The translations under genes were made by a program, and so were the position numbers. Under the pieces are notes generated by a model that ran no database searches, was not told the origin of the DNA, and saw only the letters and a program-made list of their open reading frames with translations. A stretch of DNA of 64,000 nt from Blastocatellia bacterium (GTDB taxonomy: Bacteria; Acidobacteriota; Blastocatellia; Chloracidobacteriales; JADJPF01): the NCBI GenBank assembly GCA_025057015.1, contig JANWYG010000017.1:124001-188000 (forward strand), read 5' to 3'. The stretch's first letter is position 1. Each line of letters begins with the position of its first letter. Positions 16,604-47,666 of this stretch are shown in pieces.

Positions 16604-17641
16604 GTGACAACTGAGAAAGTAAAATCAGCTGCCTTGCTGACAGCCAAGCTGGCCTTAAGTGGCGCAATACTTGGGTATATCTTTTACAAAGTTGGTATAA
16701 GAAACATATATGTCAGTCTGTTAACAGCAGACGCTAAACACGTACTAATGTCGCTAGTCTTCATCTTCATATCGTATTTCCTGGGAATAAAGAGGTGGCA
16801 GGAACTGGCGCGGGCCGTAGATGTAACTGCTAGTTACCGTCGACTGGCAGCGCTATACTTTCTAGGCCTGTTTTGTAACTATTTTTTACCTGCTGGAATA
16901 GGCGGAGACATAGTCAAAGCCTACTACTTGGGACGTTCAGCGAAGCACCGCAAAGCATTTCTTTCAGTCTTCCTAGACAGGTACGTCGGACTTCTGGTGT
17001 TACTATTCGTGTCATCACTCGTGGCAATATTCCACCGCAACAAAGGTTGGATGGCTCCCGTAGCCTACTCTATCTGGGGCCTATCCATAGGCTTCATAGT
17101 AGGCGGGGCAATAGGCCTGTACTTCGCACAGCTACTGGCAGGCTTGCTTGACAAATTTAATAAGCAGATATGGGCAGAGCGACTACGAGAAGTAGCTGCT
17201 TTGACGAAAGGACTAGCAAAGAACTACCGCGTGCTGATTACAGCAAGCCTGCTCTCAGTGGGAGCCCAATTTGCGGCCATCCTTGCCATGGATCAGCTTT
17301 CCCTGGCTGTGGGCGCTCGTTCTGATCTAACATCCATGTTCCTAATAGTCCCAATAGTTTTTCTAGCAAGCGCTTTACCACTGTCACCAGGTGGGCTAGG
17401 AACTCGCGAGGCAGCTATGGTATTCCTAATGTCAGAGCTCTATAGCGGCCTAGGCATGCAGCCTGACTCAGCGCGCAGCACAGCCGCCGCCGTGGCCTTG
17501 CTGTGGCTAGGCATAAACCTGCTTTCCAGTCTGCCAGGTATCGTAAGCTATCCTTTGGTAGCTCGCCTCAGGAGGATGGGCAACGCAAGTGTTGAAGAAG
17601 CTCATACTAGTTGTGGTGCTGATAGTCTCGGCACCAGCTGA
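16604..17641 (+). CDS. Flippase-like integral membrane protein (UPF0104 / LPG synthase TM family)
   Basis: The start is GTG, with GAGGGG about ten bases upstream. About eight hydrophobic helices span the protein, with the family pattern in the middle (FCNYFLPAGIGGDIVKAYYLGR, DRYVGLL) and near the end (PIVFLASALPLSPGGLGTREAAMVF). Homologues include the membrane part of MprF and AglD-type proteins, which move lipids or lipid-linked sugars. No synthetase domain is attached. The next gene starts 53 bases before its stop, so it heads a coupled run of four genes (16604-24215). Confidence 0.85.
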   Translation: MTTEKVKSAALLTAKLALSGAILGYIFYKVGIRNIYVSLLTADAKHVLMSLVFIFISYFLGIKRWQELARAVDVTASYRRLAALYFLGLFCNYFLPAGIGGDIVKAYYLGRSAKHRKAFLSVFLDRYVGLLVLLFVSSLVAIFHRNKGWMAPVAYSIWGLSIGFIVGGAIGLYFAQLLAGLLDKFNKQIWAERLREVAALTKGLAKNYRVLITASLLSVGAQFAAILAMDQLSLAVGARSDLTSMFLIVPIVFLASALPLSPGGLGTREAAMVFLMSELYSGLGMQPDSARSTAAAVALLWLGINLLSSLPGIVSYPLVARLRRMGNASVEEAHTSCGADSLGTS

Positions 17642-20600
17642 AGAAAAAGGCATCTTGCTGCAAGGCCGAGTAGTAAACGAGGACGGCCAACCGCTGGTCG
17701 CTGCAAGCGTGACCATACTGCAAGAAGGTACCCTGCTGCAATCAACTCAAACTTCTTCCGAAGGTACATTCATAGTTGCGCTAGCTAAGCCAGGACAATA
17801 CGACATAGCAATAAGCTTAGACGGCTTCAGGCCTCATTCGGAATCAATAAACGTACAGCGCGAGGAAATGAAGGTTTTTCAACTACTGCCCAGCTCGCTT
17901 CACGTCGTGGTGCTAGACATACAACAGGAAAAACTGTCGGACGCTGTAGTGACGGTTAAGGGTGAGGACGGGGTGGTACGCAGGGCTATCGAATCTCCAA
18001 AAGGAGATTACTACTTCGGCCGGCTGAAGCCCGGTATCTACCAACTGGAAGTCTCTATGCCTGGCTATGAAGTGGCAGTAGATGACGGAGTATACATCCC
18101 CCCCGATAACAGGACTATGCTGAGAACGCAAATACTCGTGCGAGCATCAGCCATACCTTTGGCAGATAAGCCAAAGCAAAGATATGTCTTTCCTCAGCTG
18201 CCTTCTAATCGAGTACTTGCGTTAACTCAAGATGGAAGTGGTGCAATTTGGGTAGGCACGGCAAAAGGAGTAGCTAGGTTCAGCGGAAGAGACGGCGAAG
18301 ACATTCAAGACCATGACAAGCTAAACGGTTTTGAGGTCGAGCAGATAGTCGAGCAAAGCGACGGTACCTACTGGTTTGTAACTGACAAGGGGCTCTACTA
18401 CCGCAAACCAGCTAGTTACTGCTGTGAGCAATTCCAGCTCCCAGGACGCCGAGTAAGGGCGGTTTTGGAAAACAAAGGGAGAATATGGATAGCTACTGAC
18501 CGAGGCCTCATTAGCCTACATGCGGGTATATGGACAGAGTATTCAACCAAACAAGGGCTTCCCTCGGAGGATATACGCTGCCTTGCCGCCTCACAACGAA
18601 GCGAAGCATTGCTTGCTGGAACCGCGGCTGGCCTGGTTGAAGTGGCCAACGGACGCATGCGGCTCATCGATACTGACCCTGCTCTGTCAATACTTGAAGA
18701 TAGCCAAGGCAGAACGTGGATTTTGACAGGCGAAAAAGTCAAGTATTTCGATGGCGAAAGCGTCAAGGCCTTCGATAAGCTAAGTCAGCCAGCAACCAAA
18801 GTCGCCGAGGATAGGTTTGGAAATGTATGGTTCGCAGGCCTTCGCCACGGAGTTTATGTCTACGATCCGCTTCGGGATGAAGTAGGAAAGTTCTACCAAT
18901 CAGACCGAATACTGGCTCTCTTGGTAGACAAGGAAGGTAGCTTGTGGTTCGGTACCGAAAACGGATTGATCTACCAGGACTTCAGTAGCTTCGTAAACTT
19001 CGATACGAGCAAAGGTCTGCAAGTGACAGACATTAGGTCACTTGCAGTCGATCCTAGCGGTAGGAGCAACCTCTGGGTAGGTACTGCAGCCGGATTGATA
19101 CACTTTGACGGCGTTAGATTTTCCAGAGTTACTGCCATACCGACTGAGGTCACGGTAAATCACATAATAGCCGACAGCGAAAGGGCACTTTGGGTTGCTA
19201 CTACGAACGGGCTTTACAGGTCTTTTGCCGGACGCTGGACGCGCTTCAGTACCTCAGATGGATTGCCAAGTAACGATATAAGAAGCATATGTGAGGATGA
19301 CAGGCGCAAAGGACTGTGGGTGGCTACCGAAAAAGGCGTAGTACACTTTGGAGCTCCATCCCAAGTTAGCCTACTGCAGATAAAAGCAGCCGTAAGGCAC
19401 ATCTACCGTCAGCCTGGAGGCCTGCTGTGGTTTGCTGCCGACAGAGGTGTCTATAGATACGATCCAAGCAGAAATGACCTTACGATAGTGCAACTCGACA
19501 GTTCTGACGTGAGATGGATAGAAGAAGATTCAGGCATGCTGCTGTTTGCCACAAGCAAAGGTATAGAGCTTTGTGATGGGCAGAAGCTAGTATGTAAGCA
19601 GCTACCTGCTCTGATAGGCGAAAGCATGAATGTCTTGCTGCGCGACCGAGATGGCATGTTTTGGCTCGGTGCAGAAGACGGTAAAATACGCAAGCTGCGC
19701 TACACAGGCTTGCCAGAAGTGGGGTATGAAGGGGCTGTTCTTGTATCTTACCCTGCCGACAGATACGACATAGCCGGTAACAGCATCCGCTCCATAGTTC
19801 AGGATAAGAGCGGTGCCATCTGGTTTGCTACAGACGCAGGCCTGGTAAGGCACCTACCGAATCTAGTGGTACCTAAGATAGAGTGCCGGCTAGAAGTAAA
19901 CGGTGCCGAGCGAGCCCCCGGCGAGATAGAAGCTGGCAGACACAACGTAAAGTTCAAATTTTGGGCTGTAGGTGCCAATCTCGAGACGGGTTTCATTTAC
20001 AGGATGTTGATCAACGGGCAACCTCAAGAGTTCCGCTGGCTGAGCCACCAGTCAGGGCGCCGCGAAGCAACCTTTAATGCCCTGGGAGAAGGAGAGCATA
20101 CCTTTGAGCTAAGAGCAGTAAATCGGGATCTCTACTTTTCCCAACCTTTGCGTCTGAGCATCAAAATAGACCGACCCTTTTGGAAAAAACTTCACTTGCA
20201 GTTGCTTTTCATACTGACGCTAACTACGGCAACTGCCACGCTTGCGCTAGTGCGCCGATACCAAACGAAGGGCTACCCCTTCTTGGTAACTAAGGACTTT
20301 CAGCCCATAGAGCCAAACCCGTACATAGCAGGTAACCCAATTCGTAGTCCATCGATGTTCTTCGGTCGTGAGGACGATTTTAACTACGCAAGGCTTAAGC
20401 TCGAAGGTGCCACCCAGGGCGGAGTCGTGCTTGTATTTTGCGGCGAGCGTCGGGCAGGTAAAAGCTCAATACTTTACCAGATAGCTAATGGCCGACTTGG
20501 AGAGCAGTTTGTCCCAGTTTTCATAGACCTACAGGAAATGGTAGTGTCAACTGACGGCGAGTTTTTCGATCGGGTGGCTAGGCTTATCCTCGAAGCAATA

Positions 20601-21464
20601 AGGCAGCGTGAGCTGGGTGAGTTGGACACCGAGCAGTTTCCGTTTCGCGACAGTAAGTGCAACGCCTTTCATCTGTTCTCCGACTTTATCTCCATAGCCC
20701 TCAGCGCTATAGGCGAGCGACGGCTGGTCATACTCATAGATGAGTATGAACTGCTTGAAGATAAAGTCAAAGACGGAAAGCTCTCGAAGGAAATCTTTGC
20801 CTTCTTGGCGTCATTGATCGAGTCTCGCGATCGGCTCTCGTTCATTTTTACCGGCTCTCGCCGGCTTGAGGAGCGCGACCGACGCTACTGGCGGGAAATG
20901 TTGCGTCGCTCGCTCTTCCGGAAAGTCTCCTTCCTCTCAGAACGCGATACGCTGCGTTTGATAACGGTTCCGGTCAAAGGCAAGGTCAAGTATGGCCGTA
21001 AGGCGGCAGAGAGAATTCAGAGATTAACCGGTGGGCAACCCTTTTATACGCAGTATATATGCCAGTCAATGGTTGACTATTTGAACGAAAAGCGAAGTAA
21101 CTATGTTTCCGAACAGGACATAGAGCGCATAGCCGAGGAGGTCGTCGATAATCCATTGCCGCAAATGATCTACTTCTGGCAAGGGTTCAGCGCCGACGAA
21201 AAGCTGGTTATGTCCCTACTGGCTGAAGTGCTAGACAAGCCGGAGTCAGTAGCTACGGCAGCAAGGATAGCCAAGGTGGTCGCAAAGCAAGGCTATCCCG
21301 TACTGCTGTCGGAAAACAGCATAAGGCTGATTCTCGAAGAGCTAGTCCGAGCAGATGTGCTGAAGCGGATAGGTGACGAAGGATACTGTTTTCGGTTAGA
21401 TTTATTCAGGTTGTGGATACGCAAAAGCCACGGTTTTTGGAGCATAGTGCGAGAAGTAGCATGA
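17589..21464 (+). CDS. Periplasmic two-component-type propeller sensor joined to a cytoplasmic STAND-like P-loop NTPase
   Basis: This 1291-residue protein reads as follows. A signal peptide or start anchor occupies 1-18. Two carboxypeptidase regulatory-like (CarboxypepD_reg) domains lie at about 24-92 and 102-170. Many Reg_prop blades (about 200-757) show repeats such as ALTQDGSGAIWVGT, DKEGSLWFGTENGL and VQDKSGAIWFATDAG. A Y_Y_Y-type Ig-like domain lies at about 764-860, a membrane helix at about 868-889, and a P-loop ATPase at about 905-1291. The ATPase has Walker A GERRAGKSS (about 952) and Walker B LVILIDEYE (about 1046). In most proteins of this layout a histidine kinase follows the Y_Y_Y domain; here an NTPase takes its place. 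Sensing of a polymer or glycan outside and NTP-driven switching inside is inferred. The start is GTG, overlapping the previous gene by 53 bases. A seven-C run lies at 18098-18104. Confidence 0.9.
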   Translation: MLKKLILVVVLIVSAPAEEKGILLQGRVVNEDGQPLVAASVTILQEGTLLQSTQTSSEGTFIVALAKPGQYDIAISLDGFRPHSESINVQREEMKVFQLLPSSLHVVVLDIQQEKLSDAVVTVKGEDGVVRRAIESPKGDYYFGRLKPGIYQLEVSMPGYEVAVDDGVYIPPDNRTMLRTQILVRASAIPLADKPKQRYVFPQLPSNRVLALTQDGSGAIWVGTAKGVARFSGRDGEDIQDHDKLNGFEVEQIVEQSDGTYWFVTDKGLYYRKPASYCCEQFQLPGRRVRAVLENKGRIWIATDRGLISLHAGIWTEYSTKQGLPSEDIRCLAASQRSEALLAGTAAGLVEVANGRMRLIDTDPALSILEDSQGRTWILTGEKVKYFDGESVKAFDKLSQPATKVAEDRFGNVWFAGLRHGVYVYDPLRDEVGKFYQSDRILALLVDKEGSLWFGTENGLIYQDFSSFVNFDTSKGLQVTDIRSLAVDPSGRSNLWVGTAAGLIHFDGVRFSRVTAIPTEVTVNHIIADSERALWVATTNGLYRSFAGRWTRFSTSDGLPSNDIRSICEDDRRKGLWVATEKGVVHFGAPSQVSLLQIKAAVRHIYRQPGGLLWFAADRGVYRYDPSRNDLTIVQLDSSDVRWIEEDSGMLLFATSKGIELCDGQKLVCKQLPALIGESMNVLLRDRDGMFWLGAEDGKIRKLRYTGLPEVGYEGAVLVSYPADRYDIAGNSIRSIVQDKSGAIWFATDAGLVRHLPNLVVPKIECRLEVNGAERAPGEIEAGRHNVKFKFWAVGANLETGFIYRMLINGQPQEFRWLSHQSGRREATFNALGEGEHTFELRAVNRDLYFSQPLRLSIKIDRPFWKKLHLQLLFILTLTTATATLALVRRYQTKGYPFLVTKDFQPIEPNPYIAGNPIRSPSMFFGREDDFNYARLKLEGATQGGVVLVFCGERRAGKSSILYQIANGRLGEQFVPVFIDLQEMVVSTDGEFFDRVARLILEAIRQRELGELDTEQFPFRDSKCNAFHLFSDFISIALSAIGERRLVILIDEYELLEDKVKDGKLSKEIFAFLASLIESRDRLSFIFTGSRRLEERDRRYWREMLRRSLFRKVSFLSERDTLRLITVPVKGKVKYGRKAAERIQRLTGGQPFYTQYICQSMVDYLNEKRSNYVSEQDIERIAEEVVDNPLPQMIYFWQGFSADEKLVMSLLAEVLDKPESVATAARIAKVVAKQGYPVLLSENSIRLILEELVRADVLKRIGDEGYCFRLDLFRLWIRKSHGFWSIVREVA

Positions 21465-23386
21465 AGAATCCCTATCTAAACCGAGTAGCTATAAAGGATC
21501 CGGCTCAGTTCTATGGCAGGCGCAAAGAGGTGGCGCGAGTGCTTTCGCGCATAGGAGCCCCTCGCCCACAATCCGTGGCAATAGTTGGTGAGCGCAAGAT
21601 AGGAAAGTCTTCACTGCTTAATTACATCTATGCCCCTGAAGTCAGACGTAGAGTACTTGATGATAACTATCTTTTTGTCTTCATTGACCTACAGCAGCGG
21701 CGCTACAACAGCGCAGAAGAGTTCCTTGCCGAGGTAGTGTCGAAGGTAAGCGAGGTGCTTCCTGAGGCTTCGGTAGATCCTAAGTGCAGCAGCTTCGACG
21801 AAGTGCGTAGGGCACTTACCCGCCTCCAGAAATGCGGCTACAAGCTGGTGCTGCTGCTTGACGAGTTTGACGCCATAACTAGCAACAGCGCTTTCGGCCT
21901 GGAATTCTTCGCCTTCTTGCGCTCGGCAGCAAACAACTACGATGTAGCCTATATCACGTCTTCTGCAAGGGATCTGCACGAGCTGTGCCATACTGACCAA
22001 ATAGCTGACTCACCCTTTTTCAACATTTTCACAAATCTGTATCTACGGGCCTTTAGCGCAGAAGAAGCCGAGCAGCTGATAAGCGAGCCCTCAGCAAAAG
22101 CTGGGTTGCCACTTCAGCCGTATAGCAGCCACATTTGCGAGCTCGCAGGACATTTTCCCTTCTTTTTGCAGATTGCCTGCGGGAGCTTCTTCGACCAACT
22201 GTCGGAAGGTATGATGGATTTAAAGAAGATAGAAGAGAGTTTTCTCGATGAGGCCCAAGTGCACTTTCGCTACATGTGGCAGCACCTACGTGAGGAAGAG
22301 CGTTCCCTGATAAAGCAGTTCCTGTCCGGTTACGGAATTGCCAAGACCAGGGAGCATGTTTTCGAAAAGCTAAGGCGCAACGGCTACTTTATAGCGAGTA
22401 ATGGGCAAACCCGTCTTTTCTCGCGTGTCTTTGCACAGGTAGTAGCAGAAGAAGACTACATCCCGCCGACAGATCCGGTCCTGGATCGAACCAAGTTGGA
22501 GCAGAGAAGGAGAGGCTTTTCTGCCAGAGATGATTCAAGTGGTGAGCAACTGCCGCAGCAGCTAGGCAGGTTTCTCCTCACTAGGCGGTTGGGCAGGGGA
22601 GGTATAGGCGTGGTCTACTCTGCGACTGACCTGGAGCTAGGTAGAGAAGTGGCGATAAAACTGCTACGGCACTGCTACCTGCAGGATGGGCTAACCAGAA
22701 GGCGGTTCCTGCGCGAGGCCAGGGCGGCTTCCATGATATCTCACCCCAGCGTCTGCGCTATCTACGAAGTGGGGCAAGCTGACGGCATGCCGTACATAGC
22801 GATGGAGTTTGTCAAGGGCGTAACTCTCTCGGAGCGTCTACGGAAGACCGGCCCGCTGCCATTTAGGGAAATCATAGACTTAGGTGTGCAGGTCGCCGAA
22901 GCGCTGAGTAAGGCCCATCTGGTGGGAGTAGTGCACAGGGACATAAAGCCGTCCAACATACTCATAGACGAGCAGGGAAGAGCTAAGGTGCTAGATTTTG
23001 GCCTGGCTAAGCAGCTGCTTGAGCGGGAGGAAGAGGACCTCACCGAGCCTGGAGTCCTGCTTGGCACCGTTAGTTACATGTCTCCTGAGCAAGCTCAGGG
23101 ATTAGATAACTTGGACGCCCGATCTGACATTTTCTCCCTGGGAGTGGTGCTTTATGAAATCACTACAGGCAAGCTACCTTTTGGCGCCGAGACTTACTTC
23201 CAGACGATGGAGGCCATAATAAAGTTGCCGCATGTACCTGTTGAAAAGCTGCGCAAGAACGTCCCGACATCTCTTGTCAGGGTCATAGACCGAGCGTTGG
23301 AGAAACTTCCTGAGAACAGGTTCCAGACTGCTGCTGAGCTCGCGGCAGAGCTAACGGCTGTAGGCGCTGAGGTGACAGATGCATAA
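21461..23386 (+). CDS. STAND-like P-loop NTPase fused to a serine/threonine protein kinase
   Basis: ATG at 21461 overlaps the previous stop as ATGA, so translation is coupled; an upstream in-frame alternative start at 21413 would lie within the preceding gene. The N-terminal part opens with a version of the motif seen before the NTPase of the preceding protein (NPY...FxGRxxE), so the two NTPases are related. Walker A is GERKIGKSS (about 43-51) and Walker B is LVLLLDEFD (about 128-136). The kinase (about 367-630) keeps LGRGGIGVVY, VAIK, VVHRDIKPSN, DFGLAK and SPEQ, so it should be active. No membrane helix is visible. The likely role is the cytoplasmic output of the preceding receptor, working through NTPase-NTPase contact; that is inference. 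Confidence 0.92.
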   Translation: MKNPYLNRVAIKDPAQFYGRRKEVARVLSRIGAPRPQSVAIVGERKIGKSSLLNYIYAPEVRRRVLDDNYLFVFIDLQQRRYNSAEEFLAEVVSKVSEVLPEASVDPKCSSFDEVRRALTRLQKCGYKLVLLLDEFDAITSNSAFGLEFFAFLRSAANNYDVAYITSSARDLHELCHTDQIADSPFFNIFTNLYLRAFSAEEAEQLISEPSAKAGLPLQPYSSHICELAGHFPFFLQIACGSFFDQLSEGMMDLKKIEESFLDEAQVHFRYMWQHLREEERSLIKQFLSGYGIAKTREHVFEKLRRNGYFIASNGQTRLFSRVFAQVVAEEDYIPPTDPVLDRTKLEQRRRGFSARDDSSGEQLPQQLGRFLLTRRLGRGGIGVVYSATDLELGREVAIKLLRHCYLQDGLTRRRFLREARAASMISHPSVCAIYEVGQADGMPYIAMEFVKGVTLSERLRKTGPLPFREIIDLGVQVAEALSKAHLVGVVHRDIKPSNILIDEQGRAKVLDFGLAKQLLEREEEDLTEPGVLLGTVSYMSPEQAQGLDNLDARSDIFSLGVVLYEITTGKLPFGAETYFQTMEAIIKLPHVPVEKLRKNVPTSLVRVIDRALEKLPENRFQTAAELAAELTAVGAEVTDA

Positions 23387-24215
23387 GTTGTTATTAGTCT
23401 ATCTTCTGCTGTGCAGTGTGGCCTATGCTCAGCGGGTAGAGTACTTCTTCGGCTTAGAGCAACAAGTGGAGTTGCCTCCCTTCCGCTGTGCTTATGCAGC
23501 GCTAGAAGGAAACAATTCCGAAGAAGGGAGGAGAGGAAGTGGTGAGCCAGCAGCAGGGAGCGCTGGCTCGAGCCTGATTGTGTCGCAGCAGGAAGGCTTC
23601 CGCTGGAAAGACGCTCTCATCCAGTCCATGCGTTTTTTAATAATTCAGCACTCCTTCAGACTGCTTACTGAGAAGGGCACAAGAGACGAGTTAGCAGGTC
23701 CGTTTCTGAGAGACTACTTTAGAACGTTGAAGCGTATCAAAGGTTGGGACGATGGAGATCCGTTTCTGGTCAACTACGTTGGCCATCCGATGATGGGGGC
23801 CGTAGGTGGCTACATACAGATACATAACGATCCGGCAGGCCCTAGGAAACTTGCCGCCAGCCGCAGATATCTCGTCAGCCGGCTGAAAGCTCTCGGCTGG
23901 TCGGCAGCGTACAGTACCCAATTTGAGATAGGCCCAATAAGCGAGGCTTCTATTGGCAACGTAGGCATCAGACCAACTCGCCGGGCAAGGAACCCGATGG
24001 CACTTGTGGATCTGGTGGTTACGCCAACGCTCGGAGTAGCACTTATAGTAGGCGAGGACGCTATTGACAAGTATTTCATAGAGGGAGTAGTGGAGCGGTA
24101 TACGAGAAATAGGGCAGTTAGGGCACTTGCACGTGGTTTCCTCAATCCGTGCCGTAGCTTCGCTAACATGCTGCGTCTTAGGTGGATGTGGTACCGGGAC
24201 ACCCGCTCCCTCTGA
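23379..24215 (+). CDS. Uncharacterised exported protein, last gene of the sensor-kinase run
   Basis: The start overlaps the kinase gene by eight bases and has GAGGTGACAG before the ATG. A signal peptide of about 17 residues (MHKLLLVYLLLCSVAYAQ) is followed by a low-complexity segment (about 45-70, Gly/Ser/Glu). The distinctive core is GWDDGDPFLVNYVGHPMMGAVGGYIQIHNDP. Short exported proteins with this HPMxG...NDP pattern are, as I recall, common in Acidobacteria and resemble DUF3943 proteins, but the assignment is uncertain. The core helices are short and amphipathic. Position suggests it is the envelope partner or output of the relay. Confidence 0.75.
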   Translation: MHKLLLVYLLLCSVAYAQRVEYFFGLEQQVELPPFRCAYAALEGNNSEEGRRGSGEPAAGSAGSSLIVSQQEGFRWKDALIQSMRFLIIQHSFRLLTEKGTRDELAGPFLRDYFRTLKRIKGWDDGDPFLVNYVGHPMMGAVGGYIQIHNDPAGPRKLAASRRYLVSRLKALGWSAAYSTQFEIGPISEASIGNVGIRPTRRARNPMALVDLVVTPTLGVALIVGEDAIDKYFIEGVVERYTRNRAVRALARGFLNPCRSFANMLRLRWMWYRDTRSL

Positions 24216-35908: not shown

Positions 35909-36502
35909 CTATCCACCGCTTCCCTTCTTGAGCTCCACGAGCACTTGCTTAGCCACGGCCTTCAGCGTATCAAACACGCCTATACCCTTGTTTGCTACAG
36001 CTTCAAAAACAGGCTCGCCCTTCCTCATCAATTCCCTTTTCAACTCCTCCACGCTTACAACATTAGGCAAGTCACGTTTGTTGAGCTGCAAAACATAGGG
36101 AATTTTCATCAGATCATACCCTTGCGCCTTCAAATTCGTCTCCAGGTTCCACAGCGATTCTATATTAGCGTCCATGCGCTCGACCTGGCTATCAGCTACG
36201 AAGACGACGCCATCCACTCCCTTTAGTATTAGTTTACGGGAGGCATCATAGAAAACCTGCCCTGGGACTGTATACAGGTGAAAGCGCGTCTTGAACCCGC
36301 GCACTGTACCCAACTCTAGTGGCAGGAAGTCAAAGAACAGCGTACGATCTGTCTCCGTAGCCAAGCTGATCAGTTTCCCCTTGGCTTGTGGCGCAGTAGT
36401 GTCATAGATGTATTGCAGATTTGTAGTCTTGCCCCCAAGACCAGGGCCATAATAGACTATCTTACAGTTTATCTCGCGGGAAGCGTAATTTATGAATGTC
36501 AA
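35909..36502 (-). CDS. mglA: MglA-type small Ras-like GTPase
   Basis: This 197-residue GTPase has the family start TFINYASREINCKIVYYGPGLGGKTTNLQYIY with P-loop GPGLGGKTT. The switch II region reads TVPGQVFYDASRK, where eukaryotic Ras has DTAGQ, and the base-recognition motif is LNKRDLP. In Myxococcus MglA sets cell polarity and is controlled by the MglB (Roadblock) GAP. The upstream gene on the same strand is a Roadblock protein. A TTG start (36502) is likely, because it gives the standard N-terminus; AAGGG lies ten bases upstream. Confidence 0.92.
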   Translation of the reverse strand: MTFINYASREINCKIVYYGPGLGGKTTNLQYIYDTTAPQAKGKLISLATETDRTLFFDFLPLELGTVRGFKTRFHLYTVPGQVFYDASRKLILKGVDGVVFVADSQVERMDANIESLWNLETNLKAQGYDLMKIPYVLQLNKRDLPNVVSVEELKRELMRKGEPVFEAVANKGIGVFDTLKAVAKQVLVELKKGSGG

Positions 36503-36538
36503 GGCTAAACGACCCTTCGTAATTTTTTAAGATATTTT

Positions 36539-37033
36539 CTATTCCCGGAATAGATTGTCAATATCTTCATCTGTAATCTCGGCAAAAGGCGAGTCAAAAT
36601 CTGCACCGCGCTCTTTTTCTGCCTCGATCTTCCTCATTATTGACTCAAACACTTCGGTAAGCTCATTCGAAGCACGCTTTACCCTTAGTCTTACAAGTCC
36701 CAGACTTGACCTCTCGTCAAAAATCACTACCAATATTACTCGCTGAGCTACTATCGAGATGTGTATGTTGTCGCGCTCACCTTCGTGCGAAAGTACCGGA
36801 AATTCTTTCTCACCTATTAACCTAGCTAGTCCGTCAGTAGCAGCAACATTGCCTGCCGTAAGCGATGCTAGCGACGTCGTATCTATATTGCCTATCTCTC
36901 CATGCGAAGCTATTTGTTGCCCATTCTTATCTACTAAAAATACCATCTTAGCATTGGCGTCATCACACAGCTTGGCAATGATCGACTTTATCTGCTGATA
37001 CTCTTCCTCATACATTACCACAGCATTAGACAT
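36539..37033 (-). CDS. Roadblock/LC7-domain protein (MglB-like)
   Basis: The Roadblock fold spans about residues 10-125 (MYEEEYQQIKSIIAKLCDDANAKMVFLVDKNGQQIASHGE and ANELTEVFESIMRK-type helices). A 30-residue acidic tail follows (GADFDSPFAEITDEDIDNLF). Roadblock dimers commonly activate GTP hydrolysis by the MglA-type GTPase; the gene lies directly upstream of it with 36 bases between, so a working pair is very likely. GAGG lies ten bases before the ATG. In acidobacteria such pairs can control polarity, surface motility or envelope traffic. Confidence 0.9.
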   Translation of the reverse strand: MSNAVVMYEEEYQQIKSIIAKLCDDANAKMVFLVDKNGQQIASHGEIGNIDTTSLASLTAGNVAATDGLARLIGEKEFPVLSHEGERDNIHISIVAQRVILVVIFDERSSLGLVRLRVKRASNELTEVFESIMRKIEAEKERGADFDSPFAEITDEDIDNLFRE

Positions 37034-44746: not shown

Positions 44747-44787
44747 ATGCCCTCGGTAAATCCTCCAATGGCTCTTTCCGAGGGCAT
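44747..44787. terminator. Hairpin between gltA and the BrxC-like gene
   Basis: ATGCCCTCGG (44747-44756) pairs perfectly with 44778-44787 around a 21-base loop. It lies in the 48-base gap of convergent genes, and its outer arm reaches the stop codon of the minus-strand gene. There is no T-tract, so it may act as a bidirectional terminator or mRNA-end barrier. Confidence 0.5.
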
Positions 44788-47573
44788 TATATCAACCTGT
44801 ACTTCTGTCTTTGTCCGTCAAACAAACTCGCTCGACTACCTTGCAAGCTTATATGCACCTTTCCTCCTTCTAGCTCGACAACACACACTACCTCCTTAAG
44901 CCGCTTCTCAATCATCAAACGCCGGGCTGCATCAAAGATCATAGCTTCCAAGCTTTCCTCAGAAATTGTCTGCTGTTGTTCATAAATTCTACAAGCCTCG
45001 AAAAATTCCCTGCACAAATACTCTACTTCCTTCCTAGATACCCTCTCGTTCACCACTCTGCGCTGTGCAATCACTTGCGAGACCTCTTGAGATACAACCT
45101 CCTCGACAGGAGCTGCTACTTCCTGATTAACCTCACTACGCCTGCTACCCGTCTGAGTGAAAAATCCCGTTTGATAGAACTCTACTAGCACGTCCTCACT
45201 CGTAAAACACGGTTCATCATCAAACTCCTGTATCGGCTCTCCAAAGGCTTCTTGCAGTGCATCCTCCAGTAGCTCGTCCAGTTGTCCCTTAAAGTACACC
45301 TCCTCAGCATTTACAACCGGCTCTTGCAGCAGCTCTGCATCGTAGATCCTGGAATAAGAGTTTACATCTGCACCCTGCCTTAACCCCGCACTCGACAAAA
45401 TAACTTCGCCCTGTTCATCAGCAAGCACAACTAGTCCTGCTGCCGCCGCACCTATTGCCATCAGCAGTGCCACTGGCGGTTGTATACCGTACGGCGGTTT
45501 TCGCAGCACACGTTCAAGCTCCACCCTACTAACCCACCGCTGAGGTGACAATCTTACCTTCGTAAGCAAATACCCTAATGCCGTATCGGCTTCTACTTCC
45601 TGCCAAGTGACAAACCTCCAGCCGGCCACATCGCGTTTAACTAGTTGTAGAGGCTCCGCAAAATCACGCAGCAACTCGATATTACGCTCCATAGACCACT
45701 CCGGATGGTAGAAAAATAGCCTGATCAGCTCGCGTAAAGCCCTTTCACCGAGCGCCGATCGAAACTTGGGATGCCTATGAAACAACGTTTCTAACTCATT
45801 GCTAAAGATGCTAGCAAGCACCCCAGCAAGACGCCTGCTGTTCGGAAATAGTCTGGTTTCGATATCGAAGTTCCTTGAACGTACCCTAAAAAGTAACTCT
45901 CCATATCTACCAGCTTCTACGTATACACGTAGAAAAATCCTAACTATTTGCGCCAGTAGATATGCCCTTTCTGAGTCTAGCTTAGCGGCCATGTCTACTA
46001 TCTGATCTACCGCTACATACCTTTTGAGAATCTCTACTTCCTCAGGAAGTAGTTCTGCCGGATACCAATACATCTTACAGTTAGTCCGCTCAGCAAGAGC
46101 CTTCAAGGGTTCGTCCTCACCCTGCCCTTTGAACGAGTTTATAGGTACAATCTGCAGAACCCAGTCAAAACCTACTTCCCGTTCACCCAGTAGTATCGCC
46201 CCACGCCGTGCCGTCCCTCGCCATATTATCTCTACCTCAGCATACCCACAGCTTCCTAACTCAGCTGGCCAATCCTTGAAACAATGACTGCCCCCTTCAA
46301 GCAAAGCCAATGTCAAACGCTCATCCTCATCGCTTATTTGGGCCGCTGCCTCTGCTACAGGATCCCTTACTTCTTGGGATAACCTTAACCGATAAGCCAA
46401 CTCCCCGTCCCTGATTACTTCGATACTATCCCCAGCCGTAATAGCCATAAGCTCCATATAAGACGCCATTCGCTGCTTGAAACCTTCTCCTTCATCAAAC
46501 AGCATCACAGCATCTAAAATCTCTGCCAGCGTCCTTGCCTTACCGCTTATAGATAACACGGTCAAACCAGTAAGTAACAATTTGCCATAGATCTGTTGTG
46601 ACTGCGGCAATGCCCTGACGAACGTTACACTTAATTTGTCATAAACTGAAAGCAAATAAACCAGATCGTCTATCTTGCGAAACTCAAACTCAAACGCTTC
46701 GAAAAGGTGTACCACTGTTATCAAGTTGAAGTCGCGCTTTAGCATTGCCCGCGAGATCACGGAATAGAAGAAACCAAAAAATGAAAACTTTCCGCTATAT
46801 TTTCTTAGGTTTGGGATGAGTTCAAGTAGCTGCGGATGTACTGGATATAGCCTAACAAACTCATCTGATGTGGCGGAGAATGTTGGTAGCTCAGCCTTAA
46901 TCCGAGAATAAAGCTTTCGTAGCTCAGACCTCTGCATGGCATCCTTCACCGCTATTCGCTGCTCGAACACTTCCGCCAGCGCCCAAAGTCCTAAGCTCTC
47001 GAACGCAAACTCAGTCGACCCAGTAGCCAGATGGCTAGCTTCTTCATACATTTCTACGTATACTTTTATCCCTCCCTCAGCAGCTAGCTCCAGCAACTGT
47101 TGCCACCACCGCAATACGTTTGAGTTACCGCTAACTAGATATCTGCTTATCCCGTCAACGAAAACAGTAACTAGCTTACCACGAGACATCAAGCTTCTTA
47201 TAGCGCCTAATGACTCGTTTGCTATACGTTCTACCTCTAACTCAGCATTGAAATATATCGGAAATACTAGCGGTCTTTCAGAAGGCAATCGTGGATTTAT
47301 TATTCGCTTAGCTTCATCATCTAACTTCTCCAGCAAGCTTGGACTGGCCAAGATGGATCGAATGAATGCCAGCATATGACTCTTGCCAACCCCGCGCTCA
47401 CCTGTCAATACCATGTGCTGCCCTTTAGAAGCCTTCTCTAGACACGAGGATATTACCCGTGCCAAGCTGACCGTACATTGATAAGAGTCTACTATGCTGT
47501 CAGGACTTGCCTGATCAAACCTCAATATTTGCGCAACATGCATTAGCTTAATTAGCGACTTCACCTGCATCAT
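44787..47573 (-). CDS. Large ATPase resembling BrxC/PglY (DUF6079-like)
   Basis: Walker A GERGVGKSHML (about residues 58-67) stands close to the N-terminus, after a motif like SPDSIVDSYQCTVSLARVI. A Walker B-like VTVFVDGIS follows (about 137-145). Later segments (LYPVHPQLLELIPNLRKYS) resemble those of PglY/BrxC-type ATPases of BREX systems and DUF6079 proteins. The 928-residue length is shorter than the usual roughly 1200 of BrxC. The C-terminal 200 residues are acidic and probably helical. No BrxZ, BrxL, PglX methylase or other defence partner lies nearby, so defence is not shown. The start is uncertain (TTG at 47594 or ATG at 47573/47570); AGAAG precedes the ATG. Neighbours are DUF4388-TPR proteins in the divergent direction. 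Confidence 0.65.
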   Translation of the reverse strand: MMQVKSLIKLMHVAQILRFDQASPDSIVDSYQCTVSLARVISSCLEKASKGQHMVLTGERGVGKSHMLAFIRSILASPSLLEKLDDEAKRIINPRLPSERPLVFPIYFNAELEVERIANESLGAIRSLMSRGKLVTVFVDGISRYLVSGNSNVLRWWQQLLELAAEGGIKVYVEMYEEASHLATGSTEFAFESLGLWALAEVFEQRIAVKDAMQRSELRKLYSRIKAELPTFSATSDEFVRLYPVHPQLLELIPNLRKYSGKFSFFGFFYSVISRAMLKRDFNLITVVHLFEAFEFEFRKIDDLVYLLSVYDKLSVTFVRALPQSQQIYGKLLLTGLTVLSISGKARTLAEILDAVMLFDEGEGFKQRMASYMELMAITAGDSIEVIRDGELAYRLRLSQEVRDPVAEAAAQISDEDERLTLALLEGGSHCFKDWPAELGSCGYAEVEIIWRGTARRGAILLGEREVGFDWVLQIVPINSFKGQGEDEPLKALAERTNCKMYWYPAELLPEEVEILKRYVAVDQIVDMAAKLDSERAYLLAQIVRIFLRVYVEAGRYGELLFRVRSRNFDIETRLFPNSRRLAGVLASIFSNELETLFHRHPKFRSALGERALRELIRLFFYHPEWSMERNIELLRDFAEPLQLVKRDVAGWRFVTWQEVEADTALGYLLTKVRLSPQRWVSRVELERVLRKPPYGIQPPVALLMAIGAAAAGLVVLADEQGEVILSSAGLRQGADVNSYSRIYDAELLQEPVVNAEEVYFKGQLDELLEDALQEAFGEPIQEFDDEPCFTSEDVLVEFYQTGFFTQTGSRRSEVNQEVAAPVEEVVSQEVSQVIAQRRVVNERVSRKEVEYLCREFFEACRIYEQQQTISEESLEAMIFDAARRLMIEKRLKEVVCVVELEGGKVHISLQGSRASLFDGQRQKYRLI

Positions 47574-47666
47574 AAAACTTCTGCTACACAGCAAGAATGG
47601 TTATAATTTCCCAATATACCAAGACCTTGATACATTTTCTAACGCTTTTCTCTGTGAGAGTAGACA

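Follow-up and report, generated by a model that had tools for sequence, protein, structure and literature searches.

The 64,000-nucleotide stretch of DNA analysed here (the window) spans positions 124,001 to 188,000 of contig JANWYG010000017.1 in the Blastocatellia bacterium assembly GCA_025057015.1, and between its positions 16604 and 24215 it carries four open reading frames on the same strand, with neighbours overlapping by 53, 4 and 8 bases (the 4-base overlap is ATGA at 21461). A preliminary description of this run had proposed a single four-gene unit comprising a flippase-like membrane protein, a propeller receptor with an internal nucleoside triphosphatase (NTPase), an NTPase-Ser/Thr kinase and an exported protein. 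All four reading frames and their overlaps were found again; comparison of gene neighbourhoods and genome searches with both outer genes ruled out the four-gene system and left a two-gene core. As judged from sequence, the conserved unit is the propeller receptor with its internal NTPase together with the NTPase-Ser/Thr kinase.

The first core gene (17589..21464, + strand, GTG start) encodes a receptor of 1291 residues with a signal peptide, two CarboxypepD_reg domains, Reg_prop propellers, a single transmembrane helix predicted from hydropathy (residues 870-888; 20196..20252) and a cytoplasmic NTPase, hereafter RN for receptor-side NTPase. Pfam searches returned the two CarboxypepD_reg domains, Reg_prop (1.1e-40) and then an AAA/STAND NTPase, confirming the Reg_prop blades of the preliminary description but not its Y_Y_Y domain, for which the weak score of 14.7 bits falls far below the cut-off of 26.6 bits. 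The beta-propeller region (approximately residues 204-760; 18198..19868) has BT4663-type hybrid two-component sensors (4a2l, 3v9f) as its nearest solved relatives, and the extracellular part also weakly resembles PorZ. RN itself (20298..21461) is a STAND-type NTPase that ends in a winged-helix region and carries Walker A GERRAGKS at 20442..20465 and Walker B DE at 20739-20744, the three features expected of STAND/AAA+ proteins. Its structural model (predicted local distance difference test score, pLDDT, 91) has Cdc6/Orc1, PABY2304 (2qen) and the NLR resistosome as fold neighbours, and its match to nSTAND2 (PF20702) passes marginally, at 24.4 bits against a cut-off of 24.

An NTPase thus occupies the place where a histidine kinase usually stands, as had been pointed out before; of ten further Reg_prop receptors sampled in the same genome, eight have histidine kinase modules at their end and two have SpoIIE phosphatase domains, whereas an NTPase is found there in none, which makes this receptor an exception within its own genome. 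No Pfam match to HisKA, HATPase_c or Response_reg was found in either the receptor or the NTPase-kinase. Several of the Reg_prop histidine kinase receptors of this genome, at four loci on other contigs, are direct neighbours of Ser/Thr kinase genes, a hint that propeller receptors may be connected with this type of kinase more widely.

The second core gene (21461..23386, + strand) overlaps the receptor gene by the 4 bases given above and encodes a protein of 641 residues that lacks a transmembrane helix; its start is best read as the ATG at 21461 because all orthologues begin near NPYLNRV. The succession of an NTPase and a complete Ser/Thr kinase attributed to it earlier was recovered in Pfam (nSTAND2, 4e-65, 220.3 bits; Pkinase, 5.4e-48). 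The NTPase, termed KN for kinase-side or effector-side NTPase, extends over 21464..22459, with Walker A GERKIGKS at 21587-21610, Walker B DEFD (DE at 21860-21865) and the signature SPFFNIF, and matches the archaeal ATPase 2fna by sequence over almost its full length. The PknB-type kinase domain follows at 22580..23329, with HRD at 22934-22942 and DFG at 22994-23002. Its catalytic motifs (lysine, HRD, DFG; PF00069) are invariant across 15 orthologues, and in a fold search the domain models as PknB, with a TM-score of 0.94 on the target side and 37-39% identity to PknB of M. tuberculosis.

RN and KN are homologous (27% identity, E about 1e-13). A tree of 76 NTPase domains placed RN with distant relatives on one side and KN with most relatives on the other, across long branches and with Shimodaira-Hasegawa-like approximate likelihood ratio test (SH-aLRT) values of about 87-90, and on this topology the two are best read as separate old clades of one STAND-type NTPase family. 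Walker A and Walker B are intact in RN and in every kinase-bearing KN examined. The lead NPY...F.GR..E, described earlier as common to the two NTPases, is real and conserved across both families; the idea that it is a special sign of mutual contact was dropped, since it is a trait of the family as a whole.

Conserved co-occurrence of the two genes, which the preliminary description had proposed as the way to judge the pair, was borne out for linked and unlinked copies alike. Profiles of RN and KN were counted in one common set of 297 phylum genomes: each occurs in 23 and both together in 21, usually as one copy each (Fisher p = 8e-28, a rough guide given that the genomes are related). Eleven families have both, one has RN only and two have KN only, and the exceptions are two fragmented or incomplete assemblies and two weak distant matches, one of which (G166) has its own divergent, adjacent KN-like gene. 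A search of 78 relatives with the receptor NTPase found the orthologous receptor, along with the NTPase-kinase as a weaker paralogous match. In nine genomes of two families the two genes share a strand and are neighbours or at most 2 kb apart, and both genes are kept though unlinked or on separate contigs in eleven genomes and in two further ones. We take this retention of both genes where they lie far apart as independent evidence of joint function. The RN and KN distance matrices are also correlated (Mantel r 0.80, permutation p 2e-4, 25 pairs).

Beyond the phylum, searches of named genomes with RN led, at 38-46% identity, to Glassbacteria, Gemmatimonadales (Gemmatimonadota), Desulfobacterales (Desulfobacterota), Spirochaetales (Spirochaetota), Calditrichota, Krumholzibacteriota, Latescibacterota, Poribacteria and others; in the eight lineages named, RN was again accompanied by KN. 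Whole-genome searches recovered KN in 20 of the 23 named genomes found via RN or its neighbourhood, with one or two copies in most; the three that lack KN all have RN close to the end of a contig, which in one case is cut off within an adjacent kinase gene. The gene pair is conserved across at least eight phyla, although its distribution can be patchy, with RN in 7 of 148 genomes of one Spirochaetal class.

Across this range the two proteins keep to different compartments while their sensors and outputs change. A transmembrane segment outside the NTPase was called in 38 of 41 RN proteins, within 60 residues of the NTPase in 36, and in none of 48 KN proteins, which are thus soluble. The sensor stands before the NTPase in 19 RN proteins and behind it in 15, and is a membrane domain of four or more helices in 4; its modules are Reg_prop propellers, TPR, CarboxypepD_reg, PEGA (a transmembrane segment and then PEGA behind the NTPase) or 7-10 helices, and at one locus the propeller is a separate gene upstream. 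In some Acidobacteriota families (four loci), a membrane domain of 7-10 helices replaces the propellers. As output, KN bears either a PknB-type kinase or a cyclase of class III, and both kinds occur at both ends: Pkinase is C-terminal of KN in Acidobacteriota and N-terminal in Glassbacteria, Gemmatimonadota and Latescibacterota, and the cyclase is N-terminal in Spirochaetales and C-terminal in Desulfobacterales and Poribacteria. At the loci found beyond the phylum, next to RN lies either a kinase-KN fusion, or KN alone with a cyclase-KN (Spirochaetales), or KN with a KN-cyclase (Desulfobacterales, Poribacteria). The kinase domains of the two fusion orders fall in separate groups, suggesting that a kinase was recruited to KN more than once.

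The Spirochaetal version, seen at seven loci, has three NTPases, in an RN-PEGA receptor, a KN-only subunit and a cyclase-KN, and a gap of about 0.8-1.1 kb separates the receptor gene from the KN-only gene. In Walker B these KN-only subunits read DD (DDF) in place of DE (DEF), so that they are perhaps inactive.

We propose that the pair is a transmembrane signalling system built on matched STAND-type NTPases, in which a sensor-NTPase relays to an effector-NTPase and the kinase is activated by proximity, a reading to which we assign a probability of roughly 65% and which keeps the central idea of the preliminary description, a receptor-to-kinase relay by NTPase-NTPase contact in place of His-Asp transfer. 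STAND proteins act as ADP/ATP switches and, once activated, assemble head to tail into multimers; switching and multimerisation of this sort are established for MalT, and the MalT subfamily also takes in the kinase PknK (PMC4381067). On the proposed reading, the periplasmic propellers would sense a ligand and the single transmembrane helix would relay this to the cytoplasmic RN, which in its ATP-bound open state would make direct contact with soluble KN, recruiting it and nucleating a mixed head-to-tail assembly. The PknB-like kinase domains carried by KN would thereby be brought together and could activate one another in trans and go on to phosphorylate targets in the cytoplasm; ATP hydrolysis would reset the switch. 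Both PknB-type kinases and class III cyclases become active on dimerising, and in other lineages it would be the cyclases that the same RN/KN pair drives. Nucleation of an effector-NTPase assembly by the receptor NTPase would also account for the exchange of two unrelated outputs on a single NTPase and for the indifference to fusion order.

Several observations weigh against this proposal. Pairing and similar distances would be expected whenever an operon is co-inherited, and neither amounts to proof of contact; the gene surroundings of the pair, moreover, are not conserved. Support for the RN/KN split is moderate and the root of the tree arbitrary; the transmembrane calls come from hydropathy only, with three RN proteins under the threshold. 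The two proteins might serve one process without touching, with RN acting on some other component and the kinase under the control of its own NTPase and a different ligand, as would be consistent with the unlinked state of the pair in many genomes and with a shared NPY...F.GR lead that, as a trait of the broad family, need not mark mutual contact. We nevertheless consider this unlikely, given the near-perfect co-occurrence of two homologous NTPases and the persistence of the NTPase pair while sensor and output both swap. That same swapping bears on the direction of the signal, which sequence by itself does not give: a soluble kinase could sense a cytoplasmic cue and phosphorylate or gate the receptor, whose weakly PorZ-like propellers would then act outside, for example in polysaccharide or protein export. 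The KN proteins have no obvious cytoplasmic sensor, however, whereas those of RN vary in their extracytoplasmic modules, which are of a kind typical of receptors, and the exchange of kinase for cyclase suggests that KN is the output side, so that a reversed signal seems very improbable.

The pair could also be a membrane-anchored branch of anti-invader conflict systems, in which the receptor would detect phage or toxin at the envelope and the kinase would damage either the invader or the cell itself. An operon encoding two nSTAND2 proteins has been predicted to act against invaders (Kaur et al. 2021; PMC8195603), and one distant RN/KN pair (locus L114 in genome G026) bears a HEPN-like effector. 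The kinase domain moreover matches PADLOC PD-T4-6 kinase models, but these matches span the generic kinase domain only and the receptor has none, and the assignment as a defence system by PADLOC was dropped. The core clade, in addition, is present in one copy per genome, shows slow, vertical-looking evolution and is kept when unlinked; its sensors look like nutrient or envelope receptors, its outputs are a kinase or a cyclase, and the motifs of both NTPases are intact. We consequently regard a role in conflict as distinctly unlikely, and retain the signalling relay between RN and KN as the preferred reading.

Literature searches found no described membrane STAND receptor with a kinase or cyclase partner, nor did characterised homologues with an unrelated role turn up, which the preliminary description had named as grounds for abandoning its reading. 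In the parts of the literature covered, the two-gene nSTAND2 conflict operon (Kaur et al. 2021, eLife 10:e70394, Fig. 6C) comes nearest. As presented there, that operon likewise consists of two adjacent genes, each with an nSTAND2-related NTPase and with a variable domain fused to one of them, and a mixed ring was proposed; the receptor and NTPase-kinase genes are also two adjacent nSTAND2 NTPase genes. In the published operon, however, one NTPase is eroded and carries the effector, whereas both sets of motifs are intact here; its effectors are mostly GT4 or HEPN, whereas the core clade has a kinase or cyclase and a HEPN-like domain appears only in a distant pair. The published operon is called mobile; for our pair the signs are mixed, with one copy of each gene, often unlinked, in most pair-bearing genomes of the phylum and with correlated distances, but with a patchy distribution in other phyla, as in the Spirochaetal class above. 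Finally, one of the NTPases here sits in a membrane receptor, and the main text of that paper names no membrane receptor, kinase or cyclase for the operon, although its supplementary data might list some of the loci described here. Because the distant soluble pair of G026 has a HEPN-like domain, the two systems probably share ancestry; set against the operon as its main text describes it, we therefore call our pair a membrane-signalling variant and not a member of that conflict system. Distant soluble RN/KN-like pairs at four loci, including that of G026, carry HEAT repeats or a HEPN-like effector and are probably conflict systems of the published type.

Other known systems share single elements with the pair. 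Reg_prop hybrid two-component systems (BT4663, PDB 4a2l) have in common with it the periplasmic propeller sensor and one transmembrane helix, but here the cytoplasmic part is an NTPase, and HisKA, HATPase_c and receiver domains are absent. MalT and PknK, the latter a STAND Ser/Thr kinase, likewise use an AAA-type NTPase and winged helix as a switch, but they are single soluble proteins that sense inside the cell, whereas here sensor and output are split over two proteins with homologous NTPases. The PASTA-bearing PknB membrane kinases have a similar kinase domain, whereas our kinase lacks both transmembrane helix and PASTA and has its receptor on another polypeptide.

By what route outside signals reach those bacterial Ser/Thr kinases and cyclases that lack sensors of their own is largely an open question. 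If correct, our proposal would provide a direct route, free of His-Asp chemistry, from an outside ligand to a kinase or cyclic nucleotide, and would connect STAND switches of the immune type with ordinary signalling. It lends itself readily to testing, since membrane and soluble roles are divided and outputs are exchanged while the NTPase pair stays constant. We raise more tentatively the possibility that the pair represents its own class of transmembrane signalling parallel to two-component systems, in which sensor and effector NTPases descended from one old duplication form mixed ATP-dependent assemblies that carry the signal across, with freely exchanged sensors and outputs, in at least eight phyla.

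The outer genes of the run are co-transcribed with the pair by layout, in the case of the upstream gene, but are not core partners, the one being linked to the pair within the family only and the other occurring independently of it. The upstream flippase-like gene (16604..17641, +; LPG_synthase_TM 6.6e-44; TIGR00374) adjoins the pair in no more than two cases, this species and a relative within its family, and is missing from many pair-bearing genomes. The downstream gene (23379..24215, +) encodes an exported protein with a signal-peptide-like start and a sub-threshold DUF3943 match; it follows the kinase gene only at this locus, lies elsewhere in eight pair-bearing genomes, is missing in four others and is present in two without the full pair. 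Because of this independent distribution it was rejected as a ligand and as the partner that had been suggested. Proteins 45-64% identical to it occur in other Blastocatellia families, at unrelated loci. Scans for promoters and terminators gave no more sites than in shuffled sequence, and the neighbourhood comparison, which covered conserved target genes beside the pair, found no neighbour recurring beyond close relatives.

Elsewhere in the window, a small GTPase-like protein with a weak Arf match and an MglA-like start adjoins a Roadblock/LC7 protein (35909-37033), as in MglA/MglB polarity pairs, and a protein of 935 residues (44787-47594) has a partial DUF6079 match (4.5e-9).

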